Source: a virus
Virus record (IMG/VR): IMGVR_UViG_3300032053_000406
Location: 1-28,001 of that record
Length of the DNA stretch: 28,001 nucleotides
Direction: 5' to 3' (one strand)
Position 1 is the first letter of the stretch, and each line of letters opens with the position of its first letter. Of this stretch, positions 9,731-27,481 are shown in pieces. Under the pieces are notes generated by a model, which saw only the letters and a program-made list of their open reading frames with translations, was not told the DNA's origin and made no database searches. Made by a program: the position numbers and the translations under genes.

Positions 9731-9844
9731 GTCCGTGTCAGTGCTGGATCGTCCGTGGTGTGTCCGTGTTCCTTTCCTGCGTGCGCGCTCTGCGCGCGCA
9801 CGCCGACTGCAAACTGCAAACTGCAAACTGCAAACTGAATCATC
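9731..9844 (+). repeat. Composite spacer: GTCCGTG array, GC hairpin, CAAACTG array
   Basis: The whole 114-base gap is repeats. GTCCGTG-type units fill 9731-9772. The inverted pair GCGTGCGCGC / GCGCGCACGC occupies 9779-9803. CAAACTG units fill 9806-9837. The next ATG follows seven bases later without an SD. Confidence 0.8.
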
Positions 9845-10474
9845 ATGCTTGACCTCGTCGAGCGTCACCTTGCCCGCGCCCTCGAAAAGCTCCTCGCCCA
9901 TCCCGTCGTCATCGGCGTCCCCGACCCGCGCTGGTACCGTGCCCAGGGCATCCCGGCCGCCAGCATCAAAGTCGCCAAGCGCTCCTACCTCGACTGGATT
10001 TCCAGCGGCGCTCCCGACTCCGAGGACGACCTGCCTGATAACAAGGTCAAACAAACCTGGTCTCTCGCCGAGTGCAAAGTCATCTTCGTCCTTCACCTCT
10101 TCGACACCGCGGTCACGCGCCTCGAGCAAAACGAATTCAAACTCGCCAGCATCCTCGCCCGCGTCAACACCCTCCCGGAGTTCTGCTCCCTCGCCTCCCG
10201 CCTCGCCGATTCCCCCGGCCTTCTGCTCCTCGACCAAGGGGACTGTCCCCAGGGTCCGGATCAATCAGAGGGGACTGTCCCCTTGGTCGATCCCATTCCG
10301 AACTGGTCCACGGGTCTCCTGGAAGTCGAAGACAGCGATCCCGGCCCCCAAGACGAGCGAGTAATCGAGCGCATCATCTCGATCCCCTTAAGCGGCGACC
10401 TCGAGCTAGCCATCATCGTCGACAAGACCACCCTCGAATGGCAACTCGCCATCAGCCCCGAGGTCGAATCGTGA
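9845..10474 (+). CDS. Tail terminator candidate (Mu gp37 / DUF1834-like position) with palindrome insertion
   Basis: A 209-residue protein between the tail completion and sheath genes, where Mu has gp37. It begins with a helix (L-D-L-V-E-R-H-L-A-R-A-L-E) and ends with beta strands (L-E-L-A-I-I-V-D-K-T-T-L-E-W-Q-L), as in tail terminators. A 57-base paired palindrome (10232-10288) is translated in frame as a Gly/Pro-rich loop containing G-D-C-P and G-T-V-P, near residues 130-148. The TGA stop lies within the arm of a second such element. There is no SD. CAAACTG units stand just upstream. Confidence 0.5.
   Translation: MLDLVERHLARALEKLLAHPVVIGVPDPRWYRAQGIPAASIKVAKRSYLDWISSGAPDSEDDLPDNKVKQTWSLAECKVIFVLHLFDTAVTRLEQNEFKLASILARVNTLPEFCSLASRLADSPGLLLLDQGDCPQGPDQSEGTVPLVDPIPNWSTGLLEVEDSDPGPQDERVIERIISIPLSGDLELAIIVDKTTLEWQLAISPEVES
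10232..10288 (+). repeat. Paired GGGGACTGTCCCC element, in frame (copy A)
   Basis: Two palindromes GGGGACTGTCCCC at 10238-10250 and 10270-10282, enclosed by perfect outer arms GACCAAGGGGAC / GTCCCCTTGGTC. The total of 57 bases is 19 codons, so the host frame is kept. Confidence 0.9.
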
Positions 10475-10529
10475 AAAAGGGGACTGTCCCGCGCGTCCTC
10501 GCGCTCCGGGGGACTGTACCCTTTTTCAC
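10471..10529 (+). repeat. Paired GGGGACTGTCCC element at a stop codon (copy B)
   Basis: Arms GTGAAAAAGGGGAC and GTACCCTTTTTCAC enclose two near-palindromic cores. The TGA of the upstream gene (10472-10474) is part of the left arm. Confidence 0.9.
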
Positions 10530-10609
10530 CCTCGCAACCGTCCTGCGTGCGCGCGGCCGCGCGCGCGCCATACGTCCCATAAGTCCTATAGGTCCCATTC
10601 CCTTCCTGC
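10530..10609 (+). repeat. GC hairpin followed by 9-base tandem
   Basis: A GCGTGCGCGC / GCGCGCGC inverted pair (10545-10569) is followed by CATACGTCC, CATAAGTCC and TATAGGTCC (10569-10604). These lead directly to the SD AGGAGG (10610-10615) of the next gene. Confidence 0.8.
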
Positions 10610-10622
10610 AGGAGGAAACCAA

Positions 10623-10832
10623 ATGAAAGTCCGAGTCAAGATCCCCGAATTCACCTGGCACGACGAGAAGGGCTACCACACGGTCGCCCACGTCGGCGAG
10701 GTCCCGGCCGACCACCCGGCCATCAAAGCGGCCCTGGTCGCCGGCTACCTCGTGAGGGACATGACCGAAACGTCCGACGTTTCGGATCGTGTCCCGAGCG
10801 AACCCCGCAAGTCAACCAAGAAGGAGGCCTAA
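10623..10832 (+). CDS. Small protein before the sheath (Mu gp38 position)
   Basis: A 69-residue protein with a strong SD (AGGAGG 10610-10615). It starts M-K-V-R-V-K-I-P-E and has a compact beta-rich first 45 residues. The last 20 residues are S/T/E/K-rich, partly encoded by a degenerate 9-base tandem (GAAACGTCC then GACGTTTCG from 10767). A small gene sits at the same position before the sheath in Mu-like phages. Its stop is followed at once by the sheath ATG. No defined function. Confidence 0.55.
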   Translation: MKVRVKIPEFTWHDEKGYHTVAHVGEVPADHPAIKAALVAGYLVRDMTETSDVSDRVPSEPRKSTKKEA

Positions 10833-12287
10833 ATGCCGCTTCCCGGCGTAGTTCTCGAAACCATTCCGCCTTCCGGCGCACCGGCCAACCCTGCCGGCAC
10901 CGGCACGGTCGGCCTCATCGGCCGATTCAAGATCGGTGACATCGGCGTGCCGATCCGCTGCGGCACAAAAGAGCAGGCCGTGAGCCTGTTCGGCCCTGCC
11001 ATCCCCGGCTCGGCTATGTACGACGTCGGCGATGCCTTCGACTCCCACGCGCCCGCGGTCGTGATCGTGCGCATCGACGACACCGACGCCACCATCGCGA
11101 TTGTCGACCGCGCCACTCCGACCCCGGCGGCCAAGATGAGTTTGACCGCGCTCATCTGCGGCACGCAGAACAACTACGCGGCCGGCCCGCCCGTCGTCGG
11201 TATCCGCGCCGTCATCGCCGCCGGCACCCAGACCGAAACCTTCAAACTCACCGTCACCCTCGGCTACACCGAGTGGGACGACGTCACCGGCGCCATCGTC
11301 GGCAAGACCTTCGTCGAAGAGTGGGACAACCTCAGCATCGACACCACGGCCGCGAGGTACTTCCCCACCATCATCAACGCCGCGAGCACGCTCGTCGTGG
11401 CCGTGGACTCGGCTCCGACCCACGTCACCTGGCCGACCCACGCGCCCGCCACCGGCAACCACGACCTGGCCGGCGGTCTCGAGCCCGAGTACGTCGGCGC
11501 CGGCGCCATCGAGGCCTTCGAGAAAGACTCGAACATCAACCTCGTCATCGCCGACACCGACACCTCTCCGGTCCGCGCCGCGCTCATCGCCCACTGCAAC
11601 AAGATGGACAACCGCATCGCCATCCTGAACCCGCCCATCGGCATCACCACGACGGCGGTCAAAGTCATCACCGACGCCTACGACGAAGAGTTCGCCTTCC
11701 TGCCGTACCCGTGGCAGTCGATGTACGACCCCATCCTCGGCGTCAACCGCTGCCGGCGTCCGGCTGCCGGCGTCGCCGGCCTGGTCGCCGGTCTCCTCCC
11801 CGAGGTCTCGCCCTGCAACAAGAAGCCCGAGAACCTACTCTCGCCCGAGCGCGCGCTGACTGAGGCGGAGCTTCTCGACCTCCAGGACCACAAAGTCACC
11901 CCGCTCTACTACTTCGACAACCGCGGCATCCGCCTCCGCAACGGCATCAACCTCAGCTCCAACCCCAACACCCAGCAGGTCTTCCGCACGAGGATGCAGT
12001 TCTACATCGGCGAGAGCCTGCGGAACTCCAGCGGCTGGGCCGTCGGCGGCCAGATCAAGCCCAACGAGACGAAAGCGGTTTCCGCGCTCGCCTCTGCCTT
12101 CCTCGCCGGCCTCCTCGACGCGGGCCGCATCGAAGGCTTCAGCGTTGTCAAGGTGGATTCCGCCGCCTACCGCAGCGCGCGCAAGGAAGTCTTCCTCGTC
12201 AAGGTGCGCCTGTACCAGGTGCGCGACGAACTCCGCTGGCAGCTCGAAGTCGGACCCGACGCCGTGGTAGTCACGGCGGCCGCATAA
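10833..12287 (+). CDS. Contractile tail sheath protein (Mu gpL / P2 FI-like)
   Basis: A 484-residue protein with SD AAGGAGG (10821-10827). The N-terminus P-L-P-G-V-V-L-E-T-I-P with early T-G-T-V-G-L-I-G-R-F, the V-V-I-V-R-I-D-D strand near 75 and the variable central domain are typical of sheaths. The conserved C-terminal region includes V-F-R-T-R-M-Q-F-Y-I-G-E-S-L-R and L-V-K-V-R-L-Y-Q-V. Sheath subunits stack around the tube and contract on infection. The tube gene follows 9 bases later. The gene is free of repeat insertions. Confidence 0.9.
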   Translation: MPLPGVVLETIPPSGAPANPAGTGTVGLIGRFKIGDIGVPIRCGTKEQAVSLFGPAIPGSAMYDVGDAFDSHAPAVVIVRIDDTDATIAIVDRATPTPAAKMSLTALICGTQNNYAAGPPVVGIRAVIAAGTQTETFKLTVTLGYTEWDDVTGAIVGKTFVEEWDNLSIDTTAARYFPTIINAASTLVVAVDSAPTHVTWPTHAPATGNHDLAGGLEPEYVGAGAIEAFEKDSNINLVIADTDTSPVRAALIAHCNKMDNRIAILNPPIGITTTAVKVITDAYDEEFAFLPYPWQSMYDPILGVNRCRRPAAGVAGLVAGLLPEVSPCNKKPENLLSPERALTEAELLDLQDHKVTPLYYFDNRGIRLRNGINLSSNPNTQQVFRTRMQFYIGESLRNSSGWAVGGQIKPNETKAVSALASAFLAGLLDAGRIEGFSVVKVDSAAYRSARKEVFLVKVRLYQVRDELRWQLEVGPDAVVVTAAA

Positions 12288-12296
12288 GGAGCAACA

Positions 12297-12713
12297 ATGG
12301 CAAAAAGACCAATCGTCTCCCGCCAGGTCATCGCCCAGGTCGTCGGTCCCAACGGTCCGGTCGACTGCGGCAAATGGGAATCCGGCAAAGTCACGCACAA
12401 GATGGACGAGATCGCGTACAAGCCGACCGACGGCACGACCATCCATCTCGTCGAAGGCTACGACTACTCAGGCAGCCTGAGTCGCGGCGTCTTCGACGCT
12501 CGCCTCGCCGCGCTCATCTGGAACCAGATGCACGCCGGCACGAGCGACCCCCCGCGCCTGATGTTGCTCTTCTCTCACGTCCTCAACGAAGACCCCACCG
12601 TCGTCTACGTCTGCAAAGAGGTTCTCATCACCAACCTCGACGTCGGCTGGCAGCGCGGCCAGCCGGTAAAAGAAGACCTCACCTTCGTCTGCGAAGACCT
12701 CGAAATCGTCTAA
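12297..12713 (+). CDS. Tail tube protein (Mu gpM / P2 FII-like)
   Basis: A 138-residue beta-rich protein immediately after the sheath, with AAGGAG just before ATG 12297. It has the size and strand pattern of a tube protein, including G-K-W-E-S-G-K-V-T-H-K-M-D-E, V-E-G-Y-D-Y-S-G-S-L-S-R and a C-terminal V-K-E-D-L-T-F-V-C-E-D. Hexameric rings of it form the inner tube through which DNA passes. The sheath-tube pair in this order is diagnostic of a myovirus tail. Confidence 0.85.
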   Translation: MAKRPIVSRQVIAQVVGPNGPVDCGKWESGKVTHKMDEIAYKPTDGTTIHLVEGYDYSGSLSRGVFDARLAALIWNQMHAGTSDPPRLMLLFSHVLNEDPTVVYVCKEVLITNLDVGWQRGQPVKEDLTFVCEDLEIV

Positions 12714-12726
12714 TGCCCGCCCGCGC

Positions 12727-12880
12727 TCTCTCCCTTCTCCCTCTCCCGCTCCTTGCGGGAGAGGGTGGGGGTGAGGGTCTGTCATTCCGAGGCTCGTCCG
12801 AGGAATCTCGTTCTTCCCGCGTGCGCGCTCGGCGCGCGCACGCCCTTATGCCGCTCATGTCCCTTATGTCCCTTTCCTTC
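12727..12880 (+). repeat. Composite spacer: CTCTCCC hairpin, TCATTCCGAGG element, GC hairpin, 9-base tandem
   Basis: Four families in a row. A CTCTCCCGC / GCGGGAGAGGG hairpin spans 12727-12777. TGTCATTCCGAG through GAGGAATCTCG spans 12780-12810. GCGTGCGCGC / GCGCGCACGC spans 12819-12843. CTTATGCCG, CTCATGTCC and CTTATGTCC span 12845-12880. SD AGGAGG follows directly at 12881. No T-run follows the hairpins, so they are not typical terminators. Confidence 0.85.
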
Positions 12881-12891
12881 AGGAGGCTATC

Positions 12892-13727
12892 GTGAAAGAA
12901 TTCCCCTTCACCCTTCCCAGTGGTCGTAAGATCGTGCTGCGCGAATCCACCGGCTCCGACGAGCTCGCCGCCTTCCGCCGTTGCGGCGCCAAACCCGAAG
13001 AGCTGGAACACCAGCAATTCGAGCTCATCGCCTCGAACGTCCTCTCCCTCTCCGGAGGGGGACTGTCCCAGGGTTCTCCGGGGACTGTCCCCAAAACCGA
13101 TGGCTACGAGTCCCTGTTGTCCCTCCCCTCCAAAGACCGCCAGTCCCTCCCCATCCTTTGGAACCGCATCAACCTCCCGACCGCCGCCGAAGTCGCCGCC
13201 CTTCGTTCCTCTGTCTCAGTCCTCAGTCCTCCATCCTCCGTCCTCAGTCCTCTCCGCGTCGTCTCCTTCCGCCTCCCCTGCGGTGCCACGGCTACCATGC
13301 ACCAGTGCACCGGCCTCGAAGAATTCGCGGCCCAGCGCGCCTTCATCGGCAAACCCGCGCGCGAAGCCGACCTCTACCGCAAATGGGACGAGCTCGCCCG
13401 CTGCGTCGCGCGCCTCGGAGGGGGACTGTCCCAAGGTCCTCCGGGGACTGTCCCCAAAACCGATTCCTACTCCGGTTTCGAGGACCTCTTCTCCCTGACC
13501 TCCAAATCCCTCGCCTGCCTCTTCATCATCTTCACCGACGAGAACATTCTCAGTGGCGAAGAGCTGACCGGGCTTCGGGATTTCTCAGCGACCGGCTCGC
13601 CCTCACCAAGCTCGCAGAGCTAGCCGGCATGACACTCCGCGAGCTCCTCGCGCTGCCCGCCTCCGCGCGGCAGACGGTCCTCGAAGTCGTCCTCGAACAC
13701 CACCCCGAGCTGAAGGCGGAGGACTGA
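12892..13727 (+). CDS. Tail assembly chaperone, with probable -1 frameshift extension (0-frame product 12892-13623)
   Basis: GTG 12892 has SD AGGAGG (12881-12886). The 0-frame product (243 residues) begins F-T-L-P-S-G-R-K-I-V-L-R-E-S-T-G-S-D-E-L, typical of Mu/P2-type tail assembly proteins located between tube and tape measure. After R-D-F the 0 frame runs into S/P-rich residues and a stop. The -1 frame reads L-S-D-R-L-A-L-T-K-L-A-E-L-A-G-M and continues to 13727, a plausible helical tail. Chaperones of this type are classically made in two forms by frameshifting. GGGATTTCTC near 13576-13587 is a candidate slip site (tRNA-Phe moving from TTC to TTT). Two almost identical palindrome pairs and a TCAGTCC array are inserted in frame. 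Confidence 0.65.
13054..13099 (+). repeat. Paired GGGGACTGTCCC element, in frame (copy C)
   Basis: Cores at 13058-13069 and 13080-13092 within the chaperone gene, read as G-L-S-Q and G-T-V-P, followed by AAAACCGAT. Confidence 0.9.
13207..13254 (+). repeat. TCAGTCC heptamer array, in frame
   Basis: Units of TCAGTCC / TCCATCC / TCCGTCC give S-V-L-S-P inside the chaperone. Related arrays stand at 13762-13812, 18415-18449 and (as TCGGTCC) 22586-22619. Confidence 0.75.
13416..13464 (+). repeat. Paired GGGGACTGTCCC element, in frame (copy D)
   Basis: Cores at 13421-13432 and 13443-13455. It is nearly the same as copy C, including the trailing AAAACCGAT, and is read in the same phase, which suggests duplication within the gene. 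Confidence 0.9.
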
Positions 13728-14049
13728 AGATGGAAGATAGAGGACGGAGAATGGAGACCGGAGGTCAGTCCTTTCTCAGTCCTCATTCCTCAGTCCTCAT
13801 TCCTCCTTCCTCTCCCTCTTACCAGGGACTGCGTTCCCCCAACCCCGGGCACACGCCTCCGCCCGGGCTCACCCGCGGAGGCGCGAGCGCCCGCCTGCAG
13901 CCAGCACCTGCAGCCCCTCGCGCCTCCGTTCCTGCGTGCGCGCGCGGCCGCGCGCACGCCGACAAGGCCGATATGTCCTATCCGACTGATCCGTCCGATT
14001 CCGCCTTTCACTCTTCACTCTTCACTCTTCACTCTTTCGGAGTGTCCTC
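13728..14049 (+). repeat. 322-base composite spacer before the tape measure
   Basis: In order: GGAGGACTGAAGATGGAAGATAG-type purine-rich sequence reduced here to short AGATGGA units, a TCAGTCC/TCATTCC array (13762-13812), about 110 GC-rich bases with PstI-like CTGCAG palindromes and no gene, a GC hairpin (13934-13960), a 9-base tandem (13970-14005) and a TTCACTC array (14008-14037) ending at the start region. No convincing gene is present. The open frame through it is repeat-encoded. Confidence 0.7.
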
Positions 14050-16152
14050 ATGATGAACACCGCCTTCACCGTCGGCGTGGTCTTGATGGCCAAAGACCTC
14101 TACTCCGGCGTCCTGGCCAAAGCCCAGCGCGACATCACCCAGCTCGGCAAAGTCAGCCAGGTCCAGGCCGACGCCTTCTCGCAGTCGCTGGCCAAATGGC
14201 AGCGTGTCGGCGTCATCGGCCTCGGCGTCACGGCCGCGAGCTACAAAGTCGCCGGCGTCTTCGAAGACCTGGTCCGCGAAGCCGGCTCGGCCGAAGCCGC
14301 AGTCGGCAAAGCCTTCATCCAGATGGGCGGCCGGGGCGGCCTTACTCGGGACCAACTCGCCCGCGTCTTCTCCGGAATCCAGACCACCTGGGGCATCGCC
14401 AGTGAACAGACCTCAGCCGCGCTCGGCCAGGCCGGCGGCCGCCTTGACGACTACGCCAAAGGCCTCGGCGTCGTCCAGGTAGCCGCGACTCTCTCCACCG
14501 CGCGCCAGATGGACCTAGCCACGTCCACTGACATCATCACGACTCTCTACAAGCAGTTTGGCAAGACTATCACCAGCGTCAGCACCGACCAGGACAAATT
14601 CCGCCTCATCGCTTCCGAAGTCTCGTCCGCGCTCAAATCCTCCGGCGGTGACGCCGGCGAACTCGGCACCATCCTCGGGACGTTTGCCATTAAGGCTGCC
14701 GGCGCGGGCCAGTCTCTAGAAACCGTCCTCGGCCTGATCGCCATGCTCGGCGCTTCTGGCGCTGGCCCGCGATACGCGGCGGGGCTCATGGACCTCTTCG
14801 GCAAGATGTCCGAAATGCGGCTCAGCTCCCCAGAGGGTTTTGCTGCCATGTACCCGACCGCTGCCAAGACCGGCGACATCCTGGATTTCCTGGGGGACCT
14901 CAAGAAGCGCTTCGCTACCCTCGGTGTCACCGATGCCAATGACCAGCTTGCGCTCCTGCACGGGGTTTTCGAGGCTTCGGATGAATCTGTCCAGTTCCTC
15001 CTCAACAACATGGACAAGCTCAGCGGAGCGACGGATCGCATGTCCGCCGCCGGCAAAGACCTCACCGCGGTCGAGCGCCAGGCCGAAGACCAGATGGGCA
15101 CCTGGGACGGCGTCCAAAAGCGTCTCACCGGCCGGGTCCACGAGTTCAAAGAGATGCTCGGCACCGGCGCTCTCCCGGTCGTCAAAGCTTTCGACAAGGC
15201 CCTCGGTGGAGCGCTCCTAACCGCCGGCAAGTCGCAGGGGCTGGACCGGCTGATGTCCGGCTTCGTCGCGGTCGTGGGTCTATCCGCGGAGTTGGGCAAG
15301 GTCGCCGGGCCGGTCATGACCGCTGTCTCGGCCCTGCAGCTTTACAATCTGAACCAGAGGCTCGCCGCCAGTCTTACCGCCACGACCACCGGGACCGTCC
15401 AGGCCCAGCAACTCTCCATGCTCGGCCTCAAGGGCGGCCTCACCGGCGTCGTCGGGCTCATGGGGGAGATCGCCGCGATTGGTGGCACCTTCCTCCTCGG
15501 CTGGAACATCGGCCGCGCCATCGGCGAGTTGACCGGCCTCGACGACGCGCTGCAGAAGTTTCTCGGCCATCTCTTCCACGGCAACGTCGAGTTGACCAAG
15601 GGGCAGGAAAAGACTGTGGAGGATGTGACGGCGAAACTCCGCGCCGGCAAAGCCGCGAGCGTCTCCAAAGAGGACATGACGACGTACCTGCGCTACCAGC
15701 GCGAGATTTCCAAGCGCGAGGAAAACGAAGGTCAGTTCGTCCGCCGCATGCAGCGCTCCGGTGTCCCCCAGGGAGCCCTGGTTGGTGCGGGTTTCTCCCT
15801 GGCACCTGCGGCCGCCGACTCGTCCAAGGCCGGAATCACCGCCGCCGTCCCCAACCAGTTCGCCTCCGGCGGTCCAGTCGGCAGCACCGGCCTCGCCCTG
15901 GTCCACGAAGGCGAGTACGTCCTCCCGCGCAGTCTGGTCCGGAAAATGGGGACTGTACCGCGCGCCGAGCGCTCCGGGGGACTGTCCCCATTTTCATCCG
16001 CCTCCGGTTCCGCTCCGCACGTCTCCATCCGCATCGAGTCTATTTCCGTCCAGGGCTCCGGCCATCTCGACTACGACGTCCGCGCCCTGGCCAAAGCCAT
16101 CATCCGCATCCTCCCCGGAGAATTGAAAGCTCAAGCGCGGAGATACGCGTGA
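14050..16152 (+). CDS. Tail tape measure protein
   Basis: A 700-residue protein starting at tandem ATGs (14050, 14053). The N-terminal 350 residues show the tape-measure core: A-K-D-L-Y-S-G-V-L-A-K-A, long helices, then A-A-G-A-G-Q-S-L-E-T-V-L-G-L-I and M-G-T-W-D-G-V-Q-K-R-L-T-G-R. Hydrophobic segments lie near 405-430 and 470-495. The C-terminus has A-S-G-G-P-V then L-V-H-E-G-E-Y-V-L-P, common at the end of these proteins. It sets tail length. At roughly 0.15 nm per residue, 700 residues would suit a tail near 100 nm. A palindrome pair is inserted in frame at about residues 631-649, just after the V-H-E-G-E-Y motif. Confidence 0.9.
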   Translation: MMNTAFTVGVVLMAKDLYSGVLAKAQRDITQLGKVSQVQADAFSQSLAKWQRVGVIGLGVTAASYKVAGVFEDLVREAGSAEAAVGKAFIQMGGRGGLTRDQLARVFSGIQTTWGIASEQTSAALGQAGGRLDDYAKGLGVVQVAATLSTARQMDLATSTDIITTLYKQFGKTITSVSTDQDKFRLIASEVSSALKSSGGDAGELGTILGTFAIKAAGAGQSLETVLGLIAMLGASGAGPRYAAGLMDLFGKMSEMRLSSPEGFAAMYPTAAKTGDILDFLGDLKKRFATLGVTDANDQLALLHGVFEASDESVQFLLNNMDKLSGATDRMSAAGKDLTAVERQAEDQMGTWDGVQKRLTGRVHEFKEMLGTGALPVVKAFDKALGGALLTAGKSQGLDRLMSGFVAVVGLSAELGKVAGPVMTAVSALQLYNLNQRLAASLTATTTGTVQAQQLSMLGLKGGLTGVVGLMGEIAAIGGTFLLGWNIGRAIGELTGLDDALQKFLGHLFHGNVELTKGQEKTVEDVTAKLRAGKAASVSKEDMTTYLRYQREISKREENEGQFVRRMQRSGVPQGALVGAGFSLAPAAADSSKAGITAAVPNQFASGGPVGSTGLALVHEGEYVLPRSLVRKMGTVPRAERSGGLSPFSSASGSAPHVSIRIESISVQGSGHLDYDVRALAKAIIRILPGELKAQARRYA
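15941..15996 (+). repeat. Paired GGGGACTGT(A/C)CCC element, in frame (copy E)
   Basis: Arms GGAAAATGGGGAC / GTCCCCATTTTC lie inside the tape measure gene and are read as G-T-V-P and G-L-S-P. Confidence 0.9.
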
Positions 16153-16225
16153 GGGAAATCCGGGGACTGTCCCCACTCCGGTTCACGCTCCGAGCGCGAA
16201 CTGGGACTGTCCCCAGGGATTTCCC
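16153..16225 (+). repeat. Paired GGGGACTGTCCCC element between genes (copy F)
   Basis: Arms GGGAAATCC / GGATTTCCC enclose two cores. The element starts right after the tape measure stop and ends just before the CGGAGAG SD of the next gene, so it fills the whole junction. Confidence 0.85.
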
Positions 16226-16234
16226 GGAGAGCAC

Positions 16235-16624
16235 GTGAGATACTTTTTGGGAACCACGGTCGCGTTTGATTCGGATGGTGACCTTGCCGTCGAGAACGGT
16301 CGCGTGAAGCTCCTCTCCGACCAGGATTCCCTCCGCCAGGCGCTGGCCCACCGCGTCATGTCCTCCAAGGGCGACCTCCTCATGCACCCCGAATACGGCG
16401 CGGGCCTCCCCGACGAAATCGGCGTCCCGATGAGCCCCGACGCCAACCAGGAACTCTGCAACAAACTCAAGCACGTCCTCCTCGATGAGCCTCGTGTCGC
16501 TGAAGTCCTTTCGGTCACTTCCGTCGCTTCCTCCAGCGTTCTCACTCTCACCGCCAGCGTCAAGACCATCACCGGCGACATCCTCGAAAACCTGATCTTC
16601 CCCTTCCCTCTTTCTCTCCCATGA
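16235..16624 (+). CDS. Baseplate wedge protein, gp25/gpW-like (Mu gp46-like)
   Basis: A 129-residue protein from GTG 16235 with CGGAGAG upstream. It shows the gp25-family layout: D-G-D-L-A-V-E-N-G-R-V, then the Q-D-S-L-R-Q-A-L-A-H-R helix, and K-G-D-L-L-M-H-P-E-Y-G-A-G-L-P-D, followed by a helix and strands. gp25 sits in the inner baseplate and nucleates sheath assembly. The gpJ-like gene follows, which is the standard W-J order of P2. Confidence 0.85.
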   Translation: MRYFLGTTVAFDSDGDLAVENGRVKLLSDQDSLRQALAHRVMSSKGDLLMHPEYGAGLPDEIGVPMSPDANQELCNKLKHVLLDEPRVAEVLSVTSVASSSVLTLTASVKTITGDILENLIFPFPLSLP

Positions 16625-16670
16625 TTTTGCACTTTGCATTTTGCACTTTGCATTTTGAATTGCCCGGAGG
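16625..16670 (+). repeat. TTTGCAC/TTTGCAT array plus SD module (copy 1)
   Basis: A TTTGCAC/TTTGCAT tandem, then TTTTGAATTG, then CCGGAGG. The same sequence with one change recurs at 17827-17873, again just before a start codon. Confidence 0.85.
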
Positions 16671-16675
16671 TCCCC

Positions 16676-17791: not shown

Positions 17792-17804
17792 CGTCGCGGA
17801 TTGT

Positions 17805-17873
17805 CCTTCGTCCATCGTCCTTCGTCATTTTGCACTTTGCATTTTGCACTTTGCATTTTGAATTGTCCGGAGG
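17805..17873 (+). repeat. CTTCGTC array and TTTGCAC/TTTGCAT array plus SD module (copy 2)
   Basis: CTTCGTC/CATCGTC heptamers (about 17805-17827) run into the second copy of the TTTGCAC/TTTGCAT array with TTTTGAATTG and CCGGAGG. Confidence 0.85.
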
Positions 17874-17879
17874 CATCTC

Positions 17880-18644: not shown

Positions 18645-18646
18645 TC

Positions 18647-18763
18647 TGTCATTCCGAGGTTCGTCCGAGGAATCTCGCCCTGTCTGTGTTCGACCGTGTC
18701 TCCTGTCCGTGTTCGTCTGTGTTCCTTCCGTCTTTCACTCTTCACTCTTCACTCTTTCCGTTC
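18647..18763 (+). repeat. Composite spacer: TCATTCCGAGG element, GTCCGTG units, TTCACTC array
   Basis: The TCATTCCGAGG element spans 18647-18680, GTCTGTGTTC/GTCCGTGTTC units 18681-18731 and the TTCACTC array 18732-18758, followed by SD AGGAGG (18764-18769). Confidence 0.8.
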
Positions 18764-18773
18764 AGGAGGCCTC

Positions 18774-21194: not shown

Positions 21195-21201
21195 TGCACC
21201 C

Positions 21202-21280
21202 TGTCATTCCGAGGAGTCCGACGACGAGGAATCTCGCCCTCCCTTCAGCCCTTAAACCCTTCAGCCTTTCAGCTTCCTCC
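21202..21280 (+). repeat. TCATTCCGAGG element and TTCAGCC/TTTCAGC array
   Basis: The TCATTCCGAGG element spans 21202-21240, and TTCAGCC-type units span 21244-21280, ending two bases before the next ATG. No SD is visible between the array and the start. Confidence 0.8.
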
Positions 21281-21282
21281 TG

Positions 21283-22212
21283 ATGCTCTGCAAGCTCGGC
21301 TCCTACCAGTTCGTCCCGCTCCCCGACGGCATCGACCTCGAAGGCGCGCACAAACTCGCTCACCTCGAGATCCCCGACTTCCCCGACGTCCTCCAGGACT
21401 TCGGCCCCGGCCCCTTCAGCTTCACCATCACCGGCATCATCAAAGCCAGCGCCGGCGGCCTCGAGCAAGCCATCGGCGAGCTCGACGCGGTCCGCCGCGA
21501 CGGCAACGGCCCCTGGCTCCTGTCAATCGGCAGCCTGAGTTGGCCGGTCCTGATTGCCGCGCCCCACTACACCCGCCTCCGCAGCGGCCACTGCCGCTAC
21601 ACGGTCCAGTGCCTCCAATACGCCCCGCCCAGCGACTTCGTCTACGTCCGGGCCCCGGAACTCACCGGTCCGGACCGGATGGACTTCTGGCTCCAGCAAG
21701 CCATCGCTCGGGCCAAAGCCTTCAACCTCCAGGGCGCCATCGCTCGCCTCTACAACAAACTCTCCGACATCGAACAATTCATCTCCCGCGTCCACCGCGT
21801 CGTGAAGGATATCCAAAACCTCGCCGAGCTACCAGCGGGCCTGATTGCGCGGTTGCGTGCCGACCTGTCCCTCGTCCAACTCTACGCCTTCGGCGCCCAA
21901 ACCTCCGCCCTCGCAATTCTGAATCCTGGCTCTACCTCTACCTCTACCTCTACCTCATCCCTCCAAGACGCCGCCGCTGCCATCTATCAGTACCTCCAGC
22001 TCCTCCACACCGAAGCCGCCCTGATGTCCTCCCGCGCCGGCGCGCTCCCCACCAAAGACCAGACCTACCTCGTCTGCGGCCAGGACACCCTCCAAAGCAT
22101 CAGCATCCACTTCTACGGCAGCATCAACCGCTGGCAAGACATAGCGGTAGCCAACAAACTCTGGGACCCCACCCTCCTCGCCCCCGGCGACATCCTGGTC
22201 ATTCCTGCATGA
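21283..22212 (+). CDS. LysM-containing baseplate/tail protein
   Basis: A 309-residue protein. The N-terminal half (D-I-E-L-like G-I-D-L-E-G, P-G-P-F-S-F-T-I-T-G) resembles phage DNA-circularisation or gp53-type baseplate proteins. The last 48 residues are a LysM fold: T-Y-L-V-C-G-Q-D-T-L-Q-S-I-S, then Y-G-S-I-N-R-W-Q-D-I-A and a final L-A-P-G-D-I-L-V-I-P. LysM binds peptidoglycan glycans and here probably helps the tail tip engage the wall. It has no lytic domain. A CCTCTA tract gives an eight-residue S-T run near 216. There is no SD, and a TTTCAGC array abuts the ATG. The stop lies in a palindrome element. Confidence 0.75.
   Translation: MLCKLGSYQFVPLPDGIDLEGAHKLAHLEIPDFPDVLQDFGPGPFSFTITGIIKASAGGLEQAIGELDAVRRDGNGPWLLSIGSLSWPVLIAAPHYTRLRSGHCRYTVQCLQYAPPSDFVYVRAPELTGPDRMDFWLQQAIARAKAFNLQGAIARLYNKLSDIEQFISRVHRVVKDIQNLAELPAGLIARLRADLSLVQLYAFGAQTSALAILNPGSTSTSTSTSSLQDAAAAIYQYLQLLHTEAALMSSRAGALPTKDQTYLVCGQDTLQSISIHFYGSINRWQDIAVANKLWDPTLLAPGDILVIPA
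21930..21957 (+). repeat. CCTCTA hexamer tract, in frame as Ser-Thr
   Basis: Four to five CTCTAC units inside the LysM gene, read as S-T-S-T-S-T-S-T between two helical regions. Confidence 0.8.
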
Positions 22213-22350
22213 AAATGGGGACTGTACCGCTCTGGGGACTGTACCCATTTTCATCCTGCGTGCGCGCTCGGCGCGCGCACGCCTTCATCCTTCACCCTTC
22301 AACCTTTGAGCCTCCCTCCGTTTCGTGCTTTCGTGCTTTCGTGGCTCAGT
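22209..22350 (+). repeat. Palindrome pair (copy G), GC hairpin, and TTTCGTGC array
   Basis: Copy G spans 22209-22254 with arms ATGAAAATGGGG / CCCATTTTCAT and carries the upstream TGA in its left arm. The GC hairpin follows at 22258-22282. Then come CTTCA/CAACCTTTGAGCC units and TTTCGTGC octamers, and finally CCGGAGG (22351-22357). Confidence 0.85.
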
Positions 22351-22363
22351 CCGGAGGCCCTTC

Positions 22364-23527
22364 GTGACCCCGGTTTCGATTTTCCTCGACGACCTCGAAA
22401 TCACCTCCCACGTCCTCCTCACCATCGACAAAAACATCGGCTTCGCCGCCGACGAATTCCAGTTCGAAATCGAGAACAGCGAAGAGCGCTACACCGACCT
22501 CTTCTACGGCACGGCAGGGGAGAAGCTCGGCATCAAGATTGCGGGTGCGTTGACCTTCGCCGGCCAGGTCGACTCGGTCAACTTCTCGGTCCTCGGTCCC
22601 CGGTCCTCGGTCTCCGTCCGCGGCCGCGACCACACCGGCCGGCTCTGCGACTCCCTGGTAACGGCCGAGTTGACCGCCAAGTTCAAAGGCAAGTCTGATT
22701 CCAAGATCGTGCAACTGATTGCGACCGATCAGTCCTATCCGACCGATCTGACCGACACCACCAAAGTCCACTCCGAAGAATCCCTCCCTCCGGTCGGCGC
22801 ATCCCTCTGGTACGTGATTGTCGAACTAGCCCAGCGCAACGGCTTCGACGCCTGGGTCGGCCCCGACAAAACCATCCACTTCCGCAAGCGCGTCCTCTCG
22901 AACGACCCCAAGCGCGTCTTCGACGTCCGTTCCCTGTCATTCCGAGCGCCGAGCGAGGAATCTCGCCCCTCCTGCTCCCTCTCCTTCGACCAAGACAAGC
23001 TGTTATCCCGCGGCCTCAAAGTCCTCGTCATCGGCTACGACCCGAAGACTGGAAAGGGTCATCGCGTCGAAAAGAAGACCAATCCTCTCATCCCCGAGGC
23101 GACCTCCAAGTCCTCCAACCCTCTCCTTCCCGGCAGCCCCGGCCGCGACACCCAGCAAGGCCGTCGCCCAGGCGAAATCCAGTACACCGCCGAGAGCAGC
23201 CAGCGCAACAGCGCCAACTACCAGCTCGTAGTCGTCAAAGACTACAGCCTGGACACCAAAGAAAAGTGCATCGCCAGGGCAGAGGCCTTGCTCCGCGAGT
23301 ACTCGGCTGGCCTGATCCAAGGCAACCTGGTCGTCCCCGGTGACAGCGACCTCGAAATCAACGACTGCATCCAGATCACGGGCAGCAAGATCGCGGACCT
23401 CACCGGCGGCAAATACTACGTCATCGGCCTCCACCACGACCACTCCGTCGCCCGCTTCGCCACGACCATCACCTTCGCCTCCAAGGTTCTCACCGAAAAC
23501 ATCGTGACCACCGAGGCGGTTCTGTGA
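22364..23527 (+). CDS. Baseplate hub protein (P2 gpD / Mu gp44-like)
   Basis: A 387-residue protein starting at GTG 22364, six bases after CCGGAGG. It matches the gpD/late control hub pattern: V-S-I-F-L-D-D-L-E near the start, F-A-A-D-E-F-Q-F-E-I-E-N, G-R-D-H-T-G-R-L-C-D-S, and a C-terminal G-D-S-D-L-E-I-N-D-C-I-Q-I-T-G followed by Y-Y-V-I-G-L-H-H-D-H-S. The hub joins the tube to the spike. Three repeat families are translated inside it: TCGGTCC heptamers (22586-22619), a 9-base tandem (D-Q-S-Y-P-T) and a TCATTCCGAGG element (S-F-R-A-P-S-E-E-S-R). Confidence 0.8.
   Translation: MTPVSIFLDDLEITSHVLLTIDKNIGFAADEFQFEIENSEERYTDLFYGTAGEKLGIKIAGALTFAGQVDSVNFSVLGPRSSVSVRGRDHTGRLCDSLVTAELTAKFKGKSDSKIVQLIATDQSYPTDLTDTTKVHSEESLPPVGASLWYVIVELAQRNGFDAWVGPDKTIHFRKRVLSNDPKRVFDVRSLSFRAPSEESRPSCSLSFDQDKLLSRGLKVLVIGYDPKTGKGHRVEKKTNPLIPEATSKSSNPLLPGSPGRDTQQGRRPGEIQYTAESSQRNSANYQLVVVKDYSLDTKEKCIARAEALLREYSAGLIQGNLVVPGDSDLEINDCIQITGSKIADLTGGKYYVIGLHHDHSVARFATTITFASKVLTENIVTTEAVL
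22727..22759 (+). repeat. 9-base tandem, in frame
   Basis: GATCAGTCC, TATCCGACC, GATCTGACC in the hub gene, read as D-Q-S, Y-P-T, D-L-T. Confidence 0.85.
22935..22970 (+). repeat. TCATTCCGAGCG...GAGGAATCTCG element, in frame
   Basis: This copy lies within the hub gene and is read as L-S-F-R-A-P-S-E-E-S-R. The four other copies (12780, 18647, 21202, 25551) are between genes. All five have the same orientation. Confidence 0.85.
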
Positions 23528-23609
23528 AAATGGGGACTGTACCGCTCTGGGGACTGTACCCATTTTCACGTCCGACGTGTCCTACAGGTCAGACCCGTCA
23601 GACTCCTCT
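23524..23609 (+). repeat. Palindrome pair (copy H) and 9-base tandem
   Basis: Copy H (23524-23569) is nearly identical to copy G and again includes the upstream TGA (23525-23527). The 9-base tandem GACGTGTCC, TACAGGTCA, GACCCGTCA follows at 23574-23609. Confidence 0.85.
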
Positions 23610-23612
23610 CCC

Positions 23613-24308
23613 ATGATTTCCGCCATTCGCTCCGAAATCCGCAAAGCCCTCTCCGGCCTGGTCCCCACCGCCATCGGCACCATCGAGGCGGTCGACCTCA
23701 AAGCCTACCAGGTCCAGTGCCGCCTCAAGACCAGCGGCCAGCTCACCAACTGGCTTCGTCTCGGCAGCGACTACGTCGGCGACAAGATGGGCCTGGTCAT
23801 CGCCCCGGCCGCCGGCGACGAAGTCCTCATCGAGTTCCTCGACTGGAACCCCAGCGGCCCCGGCATCGTGGTCCGCCGCCTCTTCGGCAAAGACGCTCCT
23901 CCGTCCGTGGACGCCGACCAAGTCCACTTCGTCCACAAGTCTGGAACGGAGATTCTGGTCAAAGCCGACGGCTCGGTCGAGGTCCTCTATAAATCCGATG
24001 CGGCCTATTCGGCGAATAAGGCCTATTCCGTCTCCGCCCAGGGAGATGCCTCCCTCTCCTCCCAAGCCAAAATCACCATCTCCGCCTCCGGCCTCTGCGA
24101 AATCTCCGGCACGCCGCAGATCACCCTCAACGGCACCGGCCAGGGCGCGGTGACCTACGAAGGCTTGAAGACTGTGCTCAAAAGCATCGAGACCCAGTTC
24201 CTCGCGCACATGCACGCCGGGAACCTCGGCGCGCCGACGCCGCTTCTGACGCCGTTTACCATCGTCGTGGACCCGGCCAAATCCCTCAAAGTCGACCTTG
24301 GAGGCTAG
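23613..24308 (+). CDS. Baseplate spike / assembly protein V (P2 gpV, Mu gp45-like)
   Basis: A 231-residue protein, placed at ATG 23613. An in-frame GTG at 23577 would add 12 repeat-coded residues. An OB-fold domain spans about 20-95 (G-T-I-E-A-V-D, V-Q-C-R-L-K-T, V-I-A-P-A-A-G-D-E-V-L-I-E-F). It is followed by repetitive beta strands (about 105-180) of a trimeric spike and by an H-x-H in L-A-H-M-H-A-G near the C-terminus, which in related spikes can bind metal. The spike is the membrane-piercing tip held by the gpD hub, the gene just upstream. No SD is visible. Confidence 0.85.
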   Translation: MISAIRSEIRKALSGLVPTAIGTIEAVDLKAYQVQCRLKTSGQLTNWLRLGSDYVGDKMGLVIAPAAGDEVLIEFLDWNPSGPGIVVRRLFGKDAPPSVDADQVHFVHKSGTEILVKADGSVEVLYKSDAAYSANKAYSVSAQGDASLSSQAKITISASGLCEISGTPQITLNGTGQGAVTYEGLKTVLKSIETQFLAHMHAGNLGAPTPLLTPFTIVVDPAKSLKVDLGG

Positions 24309-24350
24309 CCTTGAACCCTTGTAACCCTGTAACCTTGGAACCTTGTAACC
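24309..24350 (+). repeat. AACCTTG/TAACC tandem before a start codon
   Basis: Units of GAACCCTTG, TAACCCTG, TAACCTTGG, AACCTTG and TAACC run directly into ATG 24351. No SD is present. Confidence 0.75.
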
Positions 24351-24572
24351 ATGCTTGACCCCTCCGCTCTCGCCAACGACCTCATCCAGCAGCTCGGCAT
24401 CCCCGCCGGCGCCGCCCAGGACAAAATCCGCATCCTGGCCAAAGTCATCATCGAGCACTTCGCGGCCAACGCCGAGGTGGACCTCTCCGGCGTCGGCATC
24501 TCGGTCGACCAGGTCTCCGCCGGCGCCGAAACTCGTTCGGCCTCCAAATCCGGCTCCGGCCGCCTCCACTGA
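24351..24572 (+). CDS. Small protein after the spike
   Basis: A 73-residue protein. A helix (residues 4-40, L-I-Q-Q-L-G then D-K-I-R-I-L-A-K-V-I-I-E-H-F) is followed by a short strand and a Ser/Gly/Arg-rich tail. It starts exactly after a repeat array without an SD. Its stop TGA (24570-24572) overlaps the first unit of a 9-base tandem. The helical part looks like true protein with biased third positions. Function unknown. Confidence 0.5.
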   Translation: MLDPSALANDLIQQLGIPAGAAQDKIRILAKVIIEHFAANAEVDLSGVGISVDQVSAGAETRSASKSGSGRLH

Positions 24573-24650
24573 TATGTCCAATCCGTCCTATCGGTCCAAT
24601 CCGTCCGATTCCGAAAGCCGTAAGCCGTGAGCCGTAAGCCGTCAGCCGTC
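24571..24650 (+). repeat. 9-base tandem followed by AGCCGTA/AGCCGTC array
   Basis: GATATGTCC, AATCCGTCC, TATCGGTCC, AATCCGTCC, GATTCCGAA (24571-24615), then AGCCGTA/AGCCGTGA/AGCCGTC units to 24650, next to the GTG start at 24651. Confidence 0.85.
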
Positions 24651-25544
24651 GTGACCCTCGGCTCCCTCGCTCTCGACCAGTTCTTCGCCGTCATCCTCGA
24701 CCCCGCCGACCCTCACTACGGGTACTTCCGCAAAGAATACGTCTGGCCGGTGCCTCTCGACGGAGCGACCGGTCCCATCTACTGGCACGGCGCGTGGTCT
24801 AATTCCCATCCCTACGTCCTCGGTGACGGCGTCAGCTACGAGGGTTCCAGCTACATCTGCATCCAGGCCCACACCGGCGAGACCCCGGGCCCGACCGGCG
24901 CCGCGTACTGGGACCTCCTCGCCGCCGAAGGCGACCCGGGGCCGACCGGACCGACCGGGCCGACTGGCCCGACTGGGCCGACTGGGCCGATCTACTGGCA
25001 CGGGGCATGGGATAATGGGCACCCGTATGTCATCGGGGACGGAGCGAGTTTCGTCGGGGCGAGCTACCTCTGCCTCATAGCACACACTAATCAGACGCCG
25101 ACGCCGGCGGGGACCGCGTACTGGGGAGTGCTGTGCGCCAAGGGCGATACCGGCGATCCCGGCCAGGCCTGGCCGGTGGGGAGCGTGTTCGTCGGGGTAG
25201 TCGCTACGAGCCCGGCGACGCTGCTGGGGTACGGCACCTGGGCGGCAATCGGCGCAGGCAAGGTTCTCGTCGGGTTGGATTCGGGGGACACGGATTTCGA
25301 TACGGTCGAGGAGACCGGCGGGGCGAAGACCCATCAGCACGCGGCCATCAGCGCGGGGACGCCGACCGGGTCGGTTCCCGACCACGGGACGGCGGTAACC
25401 GCGGCCGGGGCGGGCGCGCCAGTGACCTACGTCTCCACCAAAGGGCATTCGTTCAGCGGGACGCCGATGGCGACCCACCAGCACCAGGCAGCCTCAAACG
25501 TGATGCCGTACTTTGTGGTGTACATGTGGAAGAGGACGGCATGA
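24651..25544 (+). CDS. Second tail fibre: two carbohydrate-binding-like repeats, collagen-like linker, tail collar end
   Basis: A 297-residue protein. I placed the start at GTG 24651, because the earlier in-frame GTG 24627 lies in a repeat array. Two copies of a module resembling chitin-binding (CBM5/12-like) domains, Y-W-H-G-A-W...H-P-Y-V-x-G-D-G...Y-x-C-x-x-A-H-T, lie near 44-90 and 109-160, separated by five G-P-T collagen-like triplets. The rest matches the conserved fibre/collar end: P-V-G-S-V-F-V-G, L-G-Y-G-T-W, T-H-Q-H and a final V-V-Y-M-W-K-R-T-A. It probably binds surface glycans. From about 24900 the third codon positions shift from C to G, unlike the neighbours. Confidence 0.8.
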   Translation: MTLGSLALDQFFAVILDPADPHYGYFRKEYVWPVPLDGATGPIYWHGAWSNSHPYVLGDGVSYEGSSYICIQAHTGETPGPTGAAYWDLLAAEGDPGPTGPTGPTGPTGPTGPIYWHGAWDNGHPYVIGDGASFVGASYLCLIAHTNQTPTPAGTAYWGVLCAKGDTGDPGQAWPVGSVFVGVVATSPATLLGYGTWAAIGAGKVLVGLDSGDTDFDTVEETGGAKTHQHAAISAGTPTGSVPDHGTAVTAAGAGAPVTYVSTKGHSFSGTPMATHQHQAASNVMPYFVVYMWKRTA

Positions 25545-25550
25545 CCTCTC

Positions 25551-25585
25551 TGTCATTCCGAGGTTCGACCGAGGAATCTCGCCCT
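25551..25585 (+). repeat. TCATTCCGAGG...GAGGAATCTCG element
   Basis: It sits seven bases after the fibre stop, in the same orientation as the other four copies. Confidence 0.8.
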
Positions 25586-25607
25586 CCCTCGGACCCTTCA
25601 ACTCCCC

Positions 25608-25694
25608 CTGGCCGAAAAGCAGCGCCGCGGCCAACTAAGCAGCCGCGCCGCCCTGGCCCTCCTGCCGCTGCTGATGCTCGGAAGTGACCTGTGA
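25608..25694 (+). CDS. Possible remnant of a small membrane peptide
   Basis: Frame reading L-A-E-K-Q-R-R-G-Q-L-S-S-R-A-A-L-A-L-L, then P-L-L-M-L-G-S-D-L, and ending at TGA 25692-25694, which overlaps the next GTG start as true junctions do elsewhere in this window. It has no ATG, GTG or TTG. The TCATTCCGAGG element and a CCCTTCAA stretch sit where its start would be. It may be a truncated gene that lost its start to repeats, or may start at CTG 25608. A different frame open from ATG 25541 is mostly repeat and less convincing. Confidence 0.3.
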   Translation: MAEKQRRGQLSSRAALALLPLLMLGSDL

Positions 25695-26173
25695 CCATCG
25701 TCGCCTTCCTCCAGCACCTCTGGGTCAAAGACCCTGACCGTGTGAGGGCAATCATCGCCCGGGGCGGCACCGCTGCCCGCCGGCGTGTGGTCCGCACGAC
25801 GCTGTTCGGCGGTTGCCTGACCGGCCGCCGGCTCCTGGCGGCCTTCGGTCAGGACCTCTGCGACCGCATCATCTGGGAAGAAGCCTCGCCGGAGATCGCC
25901 GGCGACGCCAAGACCATCTTCAAACCGGACCACGAGCACATCCGCACGGTGATCGGCGCCGAAGACCCCGGCCTGGTCATCACCTTCGGCCGGATGGCCT
26001 TCGCCGCCGTCGACCGGCACTGCAACGTCGAACTGATTCGCGCCCCGCATCCCGCCGCCCGCCGCGCAGACACCGTGGCCAGGCTCCGTTCCGCGGCCGA
26101 CCGCGTCCGCTCCTTTCAACCTTTGAACCCTTCAGCTTTCAAGCCTCCGGAGGCCGTAAGCCGTGAGCTGTAA
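25691..26173 (+). CDS. Uracil-DNA-glycosylase-like phage protein (tentative)
   Basis: A 160-residue protein from GTG 25691. The layout F-L-Q-H-L-W, then L-F-G-G-C-L-T-G-R-R-L-L-A-A-F-G, then I-I-W-E-E-A-S-P-E-I, then L-V-I-T-F-G-R-M-A and finally L-I-R-A-P-H-P-A-A-R recalls the UDG superfamily: an early G-x-x-x-G loop, a central strand ending in F-G, and a late H-P loop. I cannot name a catalytic residue, so enzymatic activity is unproven. It directly precedes a DNA methyltransferase, which fits a DNA modification or repair role. The last 25 residues (F-Q-P-L-N-P-S-A-F-K-P-P) are encoded by a TTCAGC/TTTGAACCC-type array. Confidence 0.45.
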   Translation: MTIVAFLQHLWVKDPDRVRAIIARGGTAARRRVVRTTLFGGCLTGRRLLAAFGQDLCDRIIWEEASPEIAGDAKTIFKPDHEHIRTVIGAEDPGLVITFGRMAFAAVDRHCNVELIRAPHPAARRADTVARLRSAADRVRSFQPLNPSAFKPPEAVSREL

Positions 26174-26197
26174 GCCGTGAGCCGTCAGCCGTCAGCC
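26112..26197 (+). repeat. TTTCAACC/TTCAGC array and AGCCGTA/AGCCGTC array
   Basis: The first array (26112-26150) forms the C-terminus of the UDG-like gene. The second (26155-26197) covers its stop and the first codons of the methyltransferase (S-R-Q-P-S-A). Confidence 0.8.
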
Positions 26198-27481
26198 GTC
26201 CTCTGCGGCGACGCCCTGACCCACCTCCGCACCCTCCCCTCCGACTCGATAGACTCCTGCGTCACCGACCCGCCCTACCACATCTCCTTCATGGGCAAAG
26301 CCTGGGACAACCCGAAAACGGGGACTGTACCGCTCGGGGGACTGTCCCCATTTTCGCAATCGCAGGCCTGGCACCACTCCTGGGCCGTCGAAGTCCTCCG
26401 CGTCCTCAAACCGGGCGGGCACGTGCTCGCCTTCGGCGGCACGAGGACCCATCATCGCCTCTACTGTGCCACCGAAGACGCCGGCTTCGAAATCCGCGAC
26501 ACCCTCTGCTGGCTCTACGGCCAAGGCTTCCCCAAAAGCCTCGACGTCTCCAAGGCCCTCCGCAAGTCCGATATGTCTGCTCCGACTGATCCGTCCGATT
26601 CCTCTCCCTGGTCCGGCTGGGGCACCGCCCTCAAACCCGCCTGGGAAGCCATCTGCCTGGCCCGCAAGCCCCTGGACGGCACAGTAGCCCACAACGTCCA
26701 GCGCTGGGGCACCGGAGCCCTGAACATCGAGGCCTGTCGGATCGTTGGCGCGGACGGCAGCGGCAACTGGGGCTCGTCCAACGTCCACTGCAAACCCGCC
26801 TTCTGCTCCGCGCGCACTCGCCACGAGTACCGTACCGAACGCCATTCCTCCGGCCGTTTCCCCGCCAACCTAATCCTCGGTTGCTCCTGCCCGCCCTCCC
26901 GAAAATCTGATACGTCCGATCCGTCCAATCCGACCGAGGCCCATCTTCCCTCCTGCCCGGTCGCCCTCCTCGACTCCCAGAGCGGGAAGTCAGTCAGAGC
27001 TGGCAACCTTCAGCCGGCCAGGTTCGGGTCCAAGGGTGGCAGGACGTCGGTCTGGGGAATTGGCGCTGAAGTCCCTCACGTCTACGACCGCGGCGGCTTC
27101 GCCTCCCGCTTCTTCTACTGCGCCAAAGCCAGCCGCTCCGAGCGCGATGGCAGGAACCTAACGGGCAATTCTCCTCACAGGCTTAACGGTTCGGGGAAGC
27201 TGGTGAACGGAACGGGGAAAGTCAAGTTGGTGCAGAACAATCACCCGACTGTGAAGCCGGTGGCGCTAATGCGCTGGCTGGTCCGCCTGGTCACCCCGCC
27301 CGGCGGTCTAGTCCTCGACCCCTTCGCCGGCAGCGGTAGCACCGGCGTAGCCTGCCGGCAGCAAGGATTCCGCTACCTCGGCATCGACCTCAACCCCGAG
27401 TACGTGCGCATCGCCCGCGCCCGCATCGCCTCCGCTCGTCCGATCTCAACCTCAACCTTAACCTCAACCTCTTCTCGGTGA
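26177..27481 (+). CDS. Site-specific DNA methyltransferase (N6-adenine/N4-cytosine, D-P-P-Y type)
   Basis: A 434-residue protein. The catalytic motif T-D-P-P-Y is at 30-34, followed by H-I-S-F-M-G-K-A-W-D. The AdoMet-binding motif D-P-F-A-G-S-G-S-T-G is at 381-390, with N-H-P-T-V-K-P before it, so motif order is the beta-type arrangement of N4C/N6A enzymes. It would methylate phage DNA against host restriction or alter host DNA. Start GTG 26177 lies in an AGCCGTC array with no SD. Four repeat insertions are translated in frame: a palindrome pair (about 47-60), two 9-base tandems (about 132-143 and 245-254) and a Ser-Thr tract at the C-terminus. Activity after such insertions is uncertain, though motifs are intact. 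Confidence 0.85.
   Translation: MSRQPSAVLCGDALTHLRTLPSDSIDSCVTDPPYHISFMGKAWDNPKTGTVPLGGLSPFSQSQAWHHSWAVEVLRVLKPGGHVLAFGGTRTHHRLYCATEDAGFEIRDTLCWLYGQGFPKSLDVSKALRKSDMSAPTDPSDSSPWSGWGTALKPAWEAICLARKPLDGTVAHNVQRWGTGALNIEACRIVGADGSGNWGSSNVHCKPAFCSARTRHEYRTERHSSGRFPANLILGCSCPPSRKSDTSDPSNPTEAHLPSCPVALLDSQSGKSVRAGNLQPARFGSKGGRTSVWGIGAEVPHVYDRGGFASRFFYCAKASRSERDGRNLTGNSPHRLNGSGKLVNGTGKVKLVQNNHPTVKPVALMRWLVRLVTPPGGLVLDPFAGSGSTGVACRQQGFRYLGIDLNPEYVRIARARIASARPISTSTLTSTSSR
26314..26355 (+). repeat. Paired GGGGACTGT(A/C)CCC element, in frame (copy I)
   Basis: Arms GAAAACGGGGAC / GTCCCCATTTTC lie in the methyltransferase shortly after D-P-P-Y and are read as G-T-V-P and G-L-S-P. Confidence 0.9.
26570..26605 (+). 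repeat. 9-base tandem, in frame
   Basis: GATATGTCT, GCTCCGACT, GATCCGTCC, GATTCCTCT in the methyltransferase, read as D-M-S, A-P-T, D-P-S, D-S-S. Confidence 0.85.
26909..26939 (+). repeat. 9-base tandem, in frame
   Basis: GATACGTCC, GATCCGTCC, AATCCGACC in the methyltransferase, read as D-T-S, D-P-S, N-P-T. Confidence 0.85.
27444..27472 (+). repeat. CTCAAC hexamer tract, in frame as Ser-Thr
   Basis: CTCAACCTCAACCTTAACC forms the C-terminal S-T-S-T-L-T-S-T of the methyltransferase. Confidence 0.75.

Follow-up and report, generated by a model that had tools for sequence, protein, structure and literature searches.

Paired palindromes in and beside phage genes belong to a probably mobile hairpin family of WOR-3 genomes with ends resembling RAYT repeats

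The stretch of DNA analyzed here (the window) comprises 28,001 nucleotides of the IMG/VR virus record IMGVR_UViG_3300032053_000406. Gene calling in the window, with a model trained on 771 kb of the WOR-3 genome G001, placed 29 genes, all on the + strand. Distributed among them are nine elements, each with paired GGGGACTGT[A/C]CC palindromes, of which GGGGACTGTACCG, GGGGACTGTACCC, and GGGGACTGTCCCA are variants (Table 1). All nine pairs of the original prediction were present: a pattern scan with GGGGACTGTCCCC, allowing two mismatches at most, returned 32 matches in the 28-kb window against 1.63 expected, and none of 100 shuffles gave as many. Five of the elements (10232, 13054, 13416, 15941, and 26314) lie wholly within genes called with the host codon model, as had been claimed, and the reading frame is unbroken in all five genes. 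Three others (10471, 22209, and 23524) overlap the stop of the upstream gene, with the TGA located within the element arm, and the element at 16153 begins directly after a stop codon.

Table 1. Positions, arms, and gene context of the nine paired elements in the window
Element	Position (strand)	Palindromes	Arms	Context
1	10230..10290 (+)	10238-10250 and 10270-10282	TCGACCAA/TTGGTCGA	within ORF 9845-10474
2	10471..10529 (+)	10479-10491 and 10509-10521	GTGAAAAA/TTTTTCAC	TGA 10472-10474 is the stop of ORF 9845-10474
3	13058..13092 (+)		armless; right flank AAAACC	in-frame in ORF 12892-13623 (GGGLSQGSPGTVPKTD)
4	13421..13455 (+)		armless; right flank AAAACC	in-frame in a similar loop, second half of ORF 12892-13623 (GGGLSQGPPGTVPKTD)
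5	15942..15995 (+)			in-frame in tape measure gene 14050-16152; encodes MGTVPRAERSGGLSPFS
6	16153..16225 (+)		GGGAAATCC/GGATTTCCC, bulged	directly 3' of the tape measure TGA stop (16150-16152)
7	22209..22254 (+)		ATGAAAAT/ATTTTCAT	TGA 22210-22212 is the stop of ORF 21283-22212
8	23524..23569 (+)		44-base unit as in element 7	TGA 23525-23527 is the stop of baseplate hub ORF 22364-23527
9	26313..26356 (+)			in-frame in DNA methyltransferase gene 26177-27481; encodes KTGTVPLGGLSPFS between FMGKAWDNP and QSQAWHHSW

The element can be described as an imperfect hairpin of 30-70 bp, in which two GGGGACTGT[A/C]CC half-palindromes surround a variable inner stem and are usually enclosed by outer arms of 6-8 bp. 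An outer inverted repeat had been proposed for every copy; we found complementary outer arms in seven of the nine, the copies at 13058 and 13421 being without them. Similarly, the 13-mer core contains no stop in any of the six frames, as originally noted, but only three of the nine full elements, arms included, remain open in all six, owing to stops in some of the arms or spacers. When folded as a single strand, as had been suggested, each of the nine copies formed one long and strong hairpin (z -1.9 to -5.5). In this fold the two half-palindromes, left and right, pair with each other around a central mismatch, instead of each forming a small hairpin of its own.

The DNA methyltransferase gene (N6_N4_Mtase match, 4e-34, in addition to a CcrM match) encodes 14 extra residues in a loop of family-variable length, and the element peptide is absent from 40 of 40 viral relatives. 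For the tape measure, two distant partial relatives were recovered, and their homology ends at residue 630, which is the element start, so that presence or absence at this site is not decided by them. The two halves of ORF 12892-13623 have the look of a diverged repeat, and their elements are nearly identical and occupy loops of a similar kind; either two insertions or conversion between the halves would explain this arrangement. A search with the chaperone-like ORF as query retrieved no relative. Neither did a tail sheath search of viral contigs, hence no close phage relative is at hand, and element absence at the phage sites was judged from distant protein relatives.

WOR-3 is a little-known bacterial phylum. 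In an exact scan for GAAAATGGGGACTGTACCG across 84,980 species represented by one genome each, 21 of the 23 matching stretches fell into two WOR-3 MAGs. Paired elements are present in 8 of 147 WOR-3 genomes at 2 to 55 pairs each (G118, 55; G001, 53; G119, 46; G002, 32; G117, 23; G120, 13; G109, 4; G138, 2), and a reversed control pattern had zero matches in WOR-3 genomes. The element, which the original prediction had proposed to look for elsewhere in the host genome, is thus abundant in candidate hosts. Tetranucleotide composition of the window correlates with that of the seven GC-rich element-bearing genomes at 0.90-0.94. Based on the shared elements and the similar composition, we infer that the phage host is probably a member of the element-bearing WOR-3 clade; a tail sheath search of the eight host genomes found no related prophage. 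Stop-free copies make up 63% of host copies and 11.5% of shuffles, an excess that is inflated by palindromy and by kinship within subfamilies and that we therefore did not take to prove selection.

Among 86 distinct host copies, pairing of the outer arms exceeded that of controls, in which right flanks were dealt out at random, at positions 1-7 outside the core (z 2.1 to 6.4), and at bases 8-14 no pairing above shuffles was found. The boundary of the element is therefore placed about 7 bp beyond the core. Arms and inner stems change in sequence while pairing is kept: in equal-length classes of 8-18 copies we observed two-sided stem changes, with 92-99% of cells paired, where the counts include related copies and do not represent independent events. 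The 30-base core class had no two-sided stem changes.

Alignment at orthologous sites, also proposed earlier, was carried out for five element sites with syntenic WOR-3 relatives and identified empty sites in host genes. Net length changes were 36, 45, 54, 60, and 78 bp, all of which are multiples of three. The 36-bp insert of G118 is missing in six genomes, and four genomes lack the 60 bp inserted into a helicase-like gene in G119. At this position in the helicase-like gene, G002 has a different insert of 102 bp and G001 a GGGGACAC-type insert of 54 bp, and the site is thus an insertion hot spot (L278 7418-7478, L280 near 14160-14300, and L110 near 13180-13280). Insertion was not always clean, with about 20-23 bp of target replaced or lost at one host site. 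No target-site duplication or fixed target was visible at the aligned host sites, where orthologues are 15-25% divergent and a short duplication could be blurred. A sister element, GGGGACACATCC...GGACGTGTCCCC, was seen at L029 1040-1160 and 1870-1970, is at times nested in a GGGGACTGT element, and occupies about 18 sites in G001, 9 in G119, and 1 in G002.

In all nine window elements the T-centered strand is the coding strand (two-sided p = 0.004 under a coin-toss model), a bias that was absent from the original prediction. Together with the position of four of the nine at or adjoining stop codons, the strong fold of all copies, and the covariation of the arms, this orientation is what would be expected of RNA structures kept for phage gene regulation, namely terminators, mRNA 3' stabilizers, or translation attenuators. 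We consider such a function unlikely. Five of the nine elements lie within coding genes, the element is present or absent at orthologous sites, and host copies have no clear orientation preference relative to genes. Moreover, conserved structure is equally expected for the hairpins of a single-strand transposase. A scan for intrinsic terminators, defined by a GC stem and a U run, found 12 against 11.7 expected and flagged one element, and a terminator reading was discarded as being at chance. Strand-specific insertion as a general rule was likewise set aside, given the mixed orientation of host and other viral copies. We are confident that the element is a mobile, host-shared hairpin that preserves reading frames.

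Paired palindromes of this kind had been considered typical of REP/BIME elements mobilized by RAYT transposases. Y1_Tnp (RAYT-type) genes are present in every element-bearing WOR-3 genome. A search among them for a host RAYT flanked by the same palindrome had been proposed; none of the genes examined was flanked by the GGGGACTGT palindrome or a TGT-centered repeat, in a search that was not exhaustive for all genomes. We did observe inverted GGGAC repeats on both sides of 19 of 33 RAYT genes in the seven GC-rich element-bearing genomes after correction for orientation (GGGGACGCTACCCATTTTC, AGGGACACTTCCC, GGGGACACAATACTT, and others). The RAYT end GGGGACGCTACCCATTTTC, present in G001, G002, G117, G119, and G109, differs from the phage window unit GGGGACTGTACCCATTTTC by two bases. 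In G130 and G003, which have no paired elements, none of the RAYT genes (4 and 5, respectively) had GGGAC repeats on both sides, and when 591 gene positions of G001 were subjected to a similar test, only RAYT genes and one element site passed. G108 has a RAYT with a repeat of the same type, AGGGACACTTCCC, yet no GGGGACTGT pairs. In 771 kb of G001 there are 72 occurrences of the TGT unit against 6 of the ACT repeat and 5 of the GCT repeat, which identifies the TGT family as the amplified one. In agreement with the statement that the window encodes no RAYT transposase, a home-made profile detected no RAYT gene within or adjoining an element in the window or at other viral loci. Taken as a mechanism, movement by a RAYT-type enzyme is supported by these similarities in sequence, and it is the reading towards which we lean.

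The look of imperfect terminal inverted repeats, and the failure to find a cognate transposase with exact ends, would also suit MITEs derived from some unrelated insertion sequence of the DDE type, the autonomous copy of which went unsampled. This origin appears quite improbable to us, considering that no clear target-site duplication is visible at the aligned sites, where a short one could be blurred, and that RAYT ends in the same genomes match the build of the element closely. Membership in the GTAG or CGTC superfamily of true REP/BIMEs with a standard REPtron is very improbable, despite the paired palindromes, the high copy number, and the RAYT genes of the host genomes. Of 172 host flanks, 2 carried a GTAG/CTAC tag and 12 a CGTC/GACG tag, the latter being about chance, and GTAG/CTAC was absent from all 18 window flanks, where chance amounts to about 3 per 86 flanks per tag; both are thus at or below chance at the ends, and no RAYT flanked by the same palindrome was among the genes examined. 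What stands of the original assignment is a RAYT-related mobile palindrome, given RAYT flanks of the same architecture; strict REP/BIME membership is not supported.

We regard it as probable that the nine features are copies of a short, non-autonomous mobile palindrome living mainly in genomes of the WOR-3 clade and moved by RAYT. A RAYT-type single-strand Y1 transposase would recognize ends of the GGGGAC-N3-CCC type and could move the elements in trans, and the phage may have gained its copies while inside WOR-3 cells. Purifying selection would then leave only copies in loops, at gene ends, and around stop codons, where the arm TGAAAA could act as a stop codon source. A benefit to the phage is not needed by this explanation.

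RAYT TIRtrons are Y1 tyrosine transposase genes with flanking inverted repeats that can form dispersed families (Rocco et al. 2013, PMC3733652). In phage and host, the element ends are built like the inverted repeats that flank RAYT genes of the WOR-3 genomes carrying the element, but no RAYT gene belonging to the amplified TGT-centered family was present in the genomes searched. Palindromic elements inserted in-frame are known from Rickettsia and some REP-rich bacteria, and the Rickettsia palindromic elements and CGTC REPs occur in-frame in many unrelated genes without a dedicated transposase flanked by them (PMC10969869; PMC3733652). The element reported here is likewise in-frame in protein-coding genes and not found flanking a transposase; by comparison with the Rickettsia elements it is shorter, lacks the CGTC tag, has no visible sequence relation, and occurs in phage genes too. 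GTAG REP/BIMEs combine paired palindromes with RAYT genes in the genome (PMC3733652, PMC8266576), and GTAG REP ends can supply the stop codon TAG (PMC3733652). Similarly, our element is paired, accompanied by RAYT genes, and supplies TGA; it differs in lacking GTAG, in forming one long hairpin from the pair, in its sequence-variable arms, and in being often intragenic instead of extragenic. Among described systems, the element comes nearest to the terminal-repeat families of RAYT TIRtrons and to the in-frame Rickettsia palindromes, and the best label is that of non-autonomous, RAYT-repeat-like palindromes common to host and phage, comparable to Rickettsia palindromic elements. Neither the core sequence nor a paper treating WOR-3 together with palindromic repeats was encountered in the literature searched, and in-frame palindromic elements in phage genes were unreported in the papers found.

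A scan of IMG/VR for the paired pattern returned 34 matching stretches, distributed over about 30 other contigs; the inner stems differ, and GC ranges from 45 to 72%. In a terminase gpA gene (L322 4338-6395), an in-frame element lies between two Cys-x2-Cys motifs at about residue 283, inside the ATPase match (residues 61-345). The element is also in-frame in a prohead protease gene and, positioned between the two halves, in a Terminase_6 gene. Antisense copies were seen in an AAA gene and in a Portal_Mu gene, in the latter beyond the domain match. The pair on contig L340 resembles a coding repeat, and its match may be coincidental. Seven matches of the half-element GGGGACTGTACCGCGC in viral contigs, all unpaired, were taken as chance. 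It is conceivable, although we hold this only tentatively, that RAYT-moved hairpins form a class extending across phyla, with arms that may vary in sequence so long as they pair, and that this class spreads between bacteria and their tailed phages, supplying stop codons and repeatedly inserting short peptides in-frame into essential phage proteins (terminase, tape measure, and methyltransferase). If so, the class would be a standing source of new phage protein loops. The phage, the empty host sites, and the look-alike RAYT ends provide a concrete system for testing RAYT movement in trans and phages as carriers of repeats between hosts, and for asking how proteins tolerate repeated peptide insertions at one loop.

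The window contains further repeats. Short tandem arrays of 7-base units (CTGCAAA, TTCACTC, AGCCGTC, and others) are located at 4035-4062, 4768-4795, 9806-9833, 14007-14034, 18734-18754, 26180-26200, and elsewhere, some of them adjoining gene starts; the units are rare in G001, and GCAAACT has two matches in 50 kb of G120. A second dispersed palindrome family, TGTCATTCCGAG...CGAGGAATCTCG, was noted at 12778, 18645, 22933, and 25549, with 5 matches in the window, 1 in G001 (771 kb), and 2 in G120 (50 kb). Dispersed copies of GTCCGATCGGTCCTATC..., a repeat whose period is close to 9 bases, occur at 1138, 3601, 4507, 4719, 13966, 22723, 24576, and 26566, in some cases within called genes including that of the methyltransferase. 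Positions 5485-6487 encode collagen-like GPQGNQG repeats of a candidate tail fiber.
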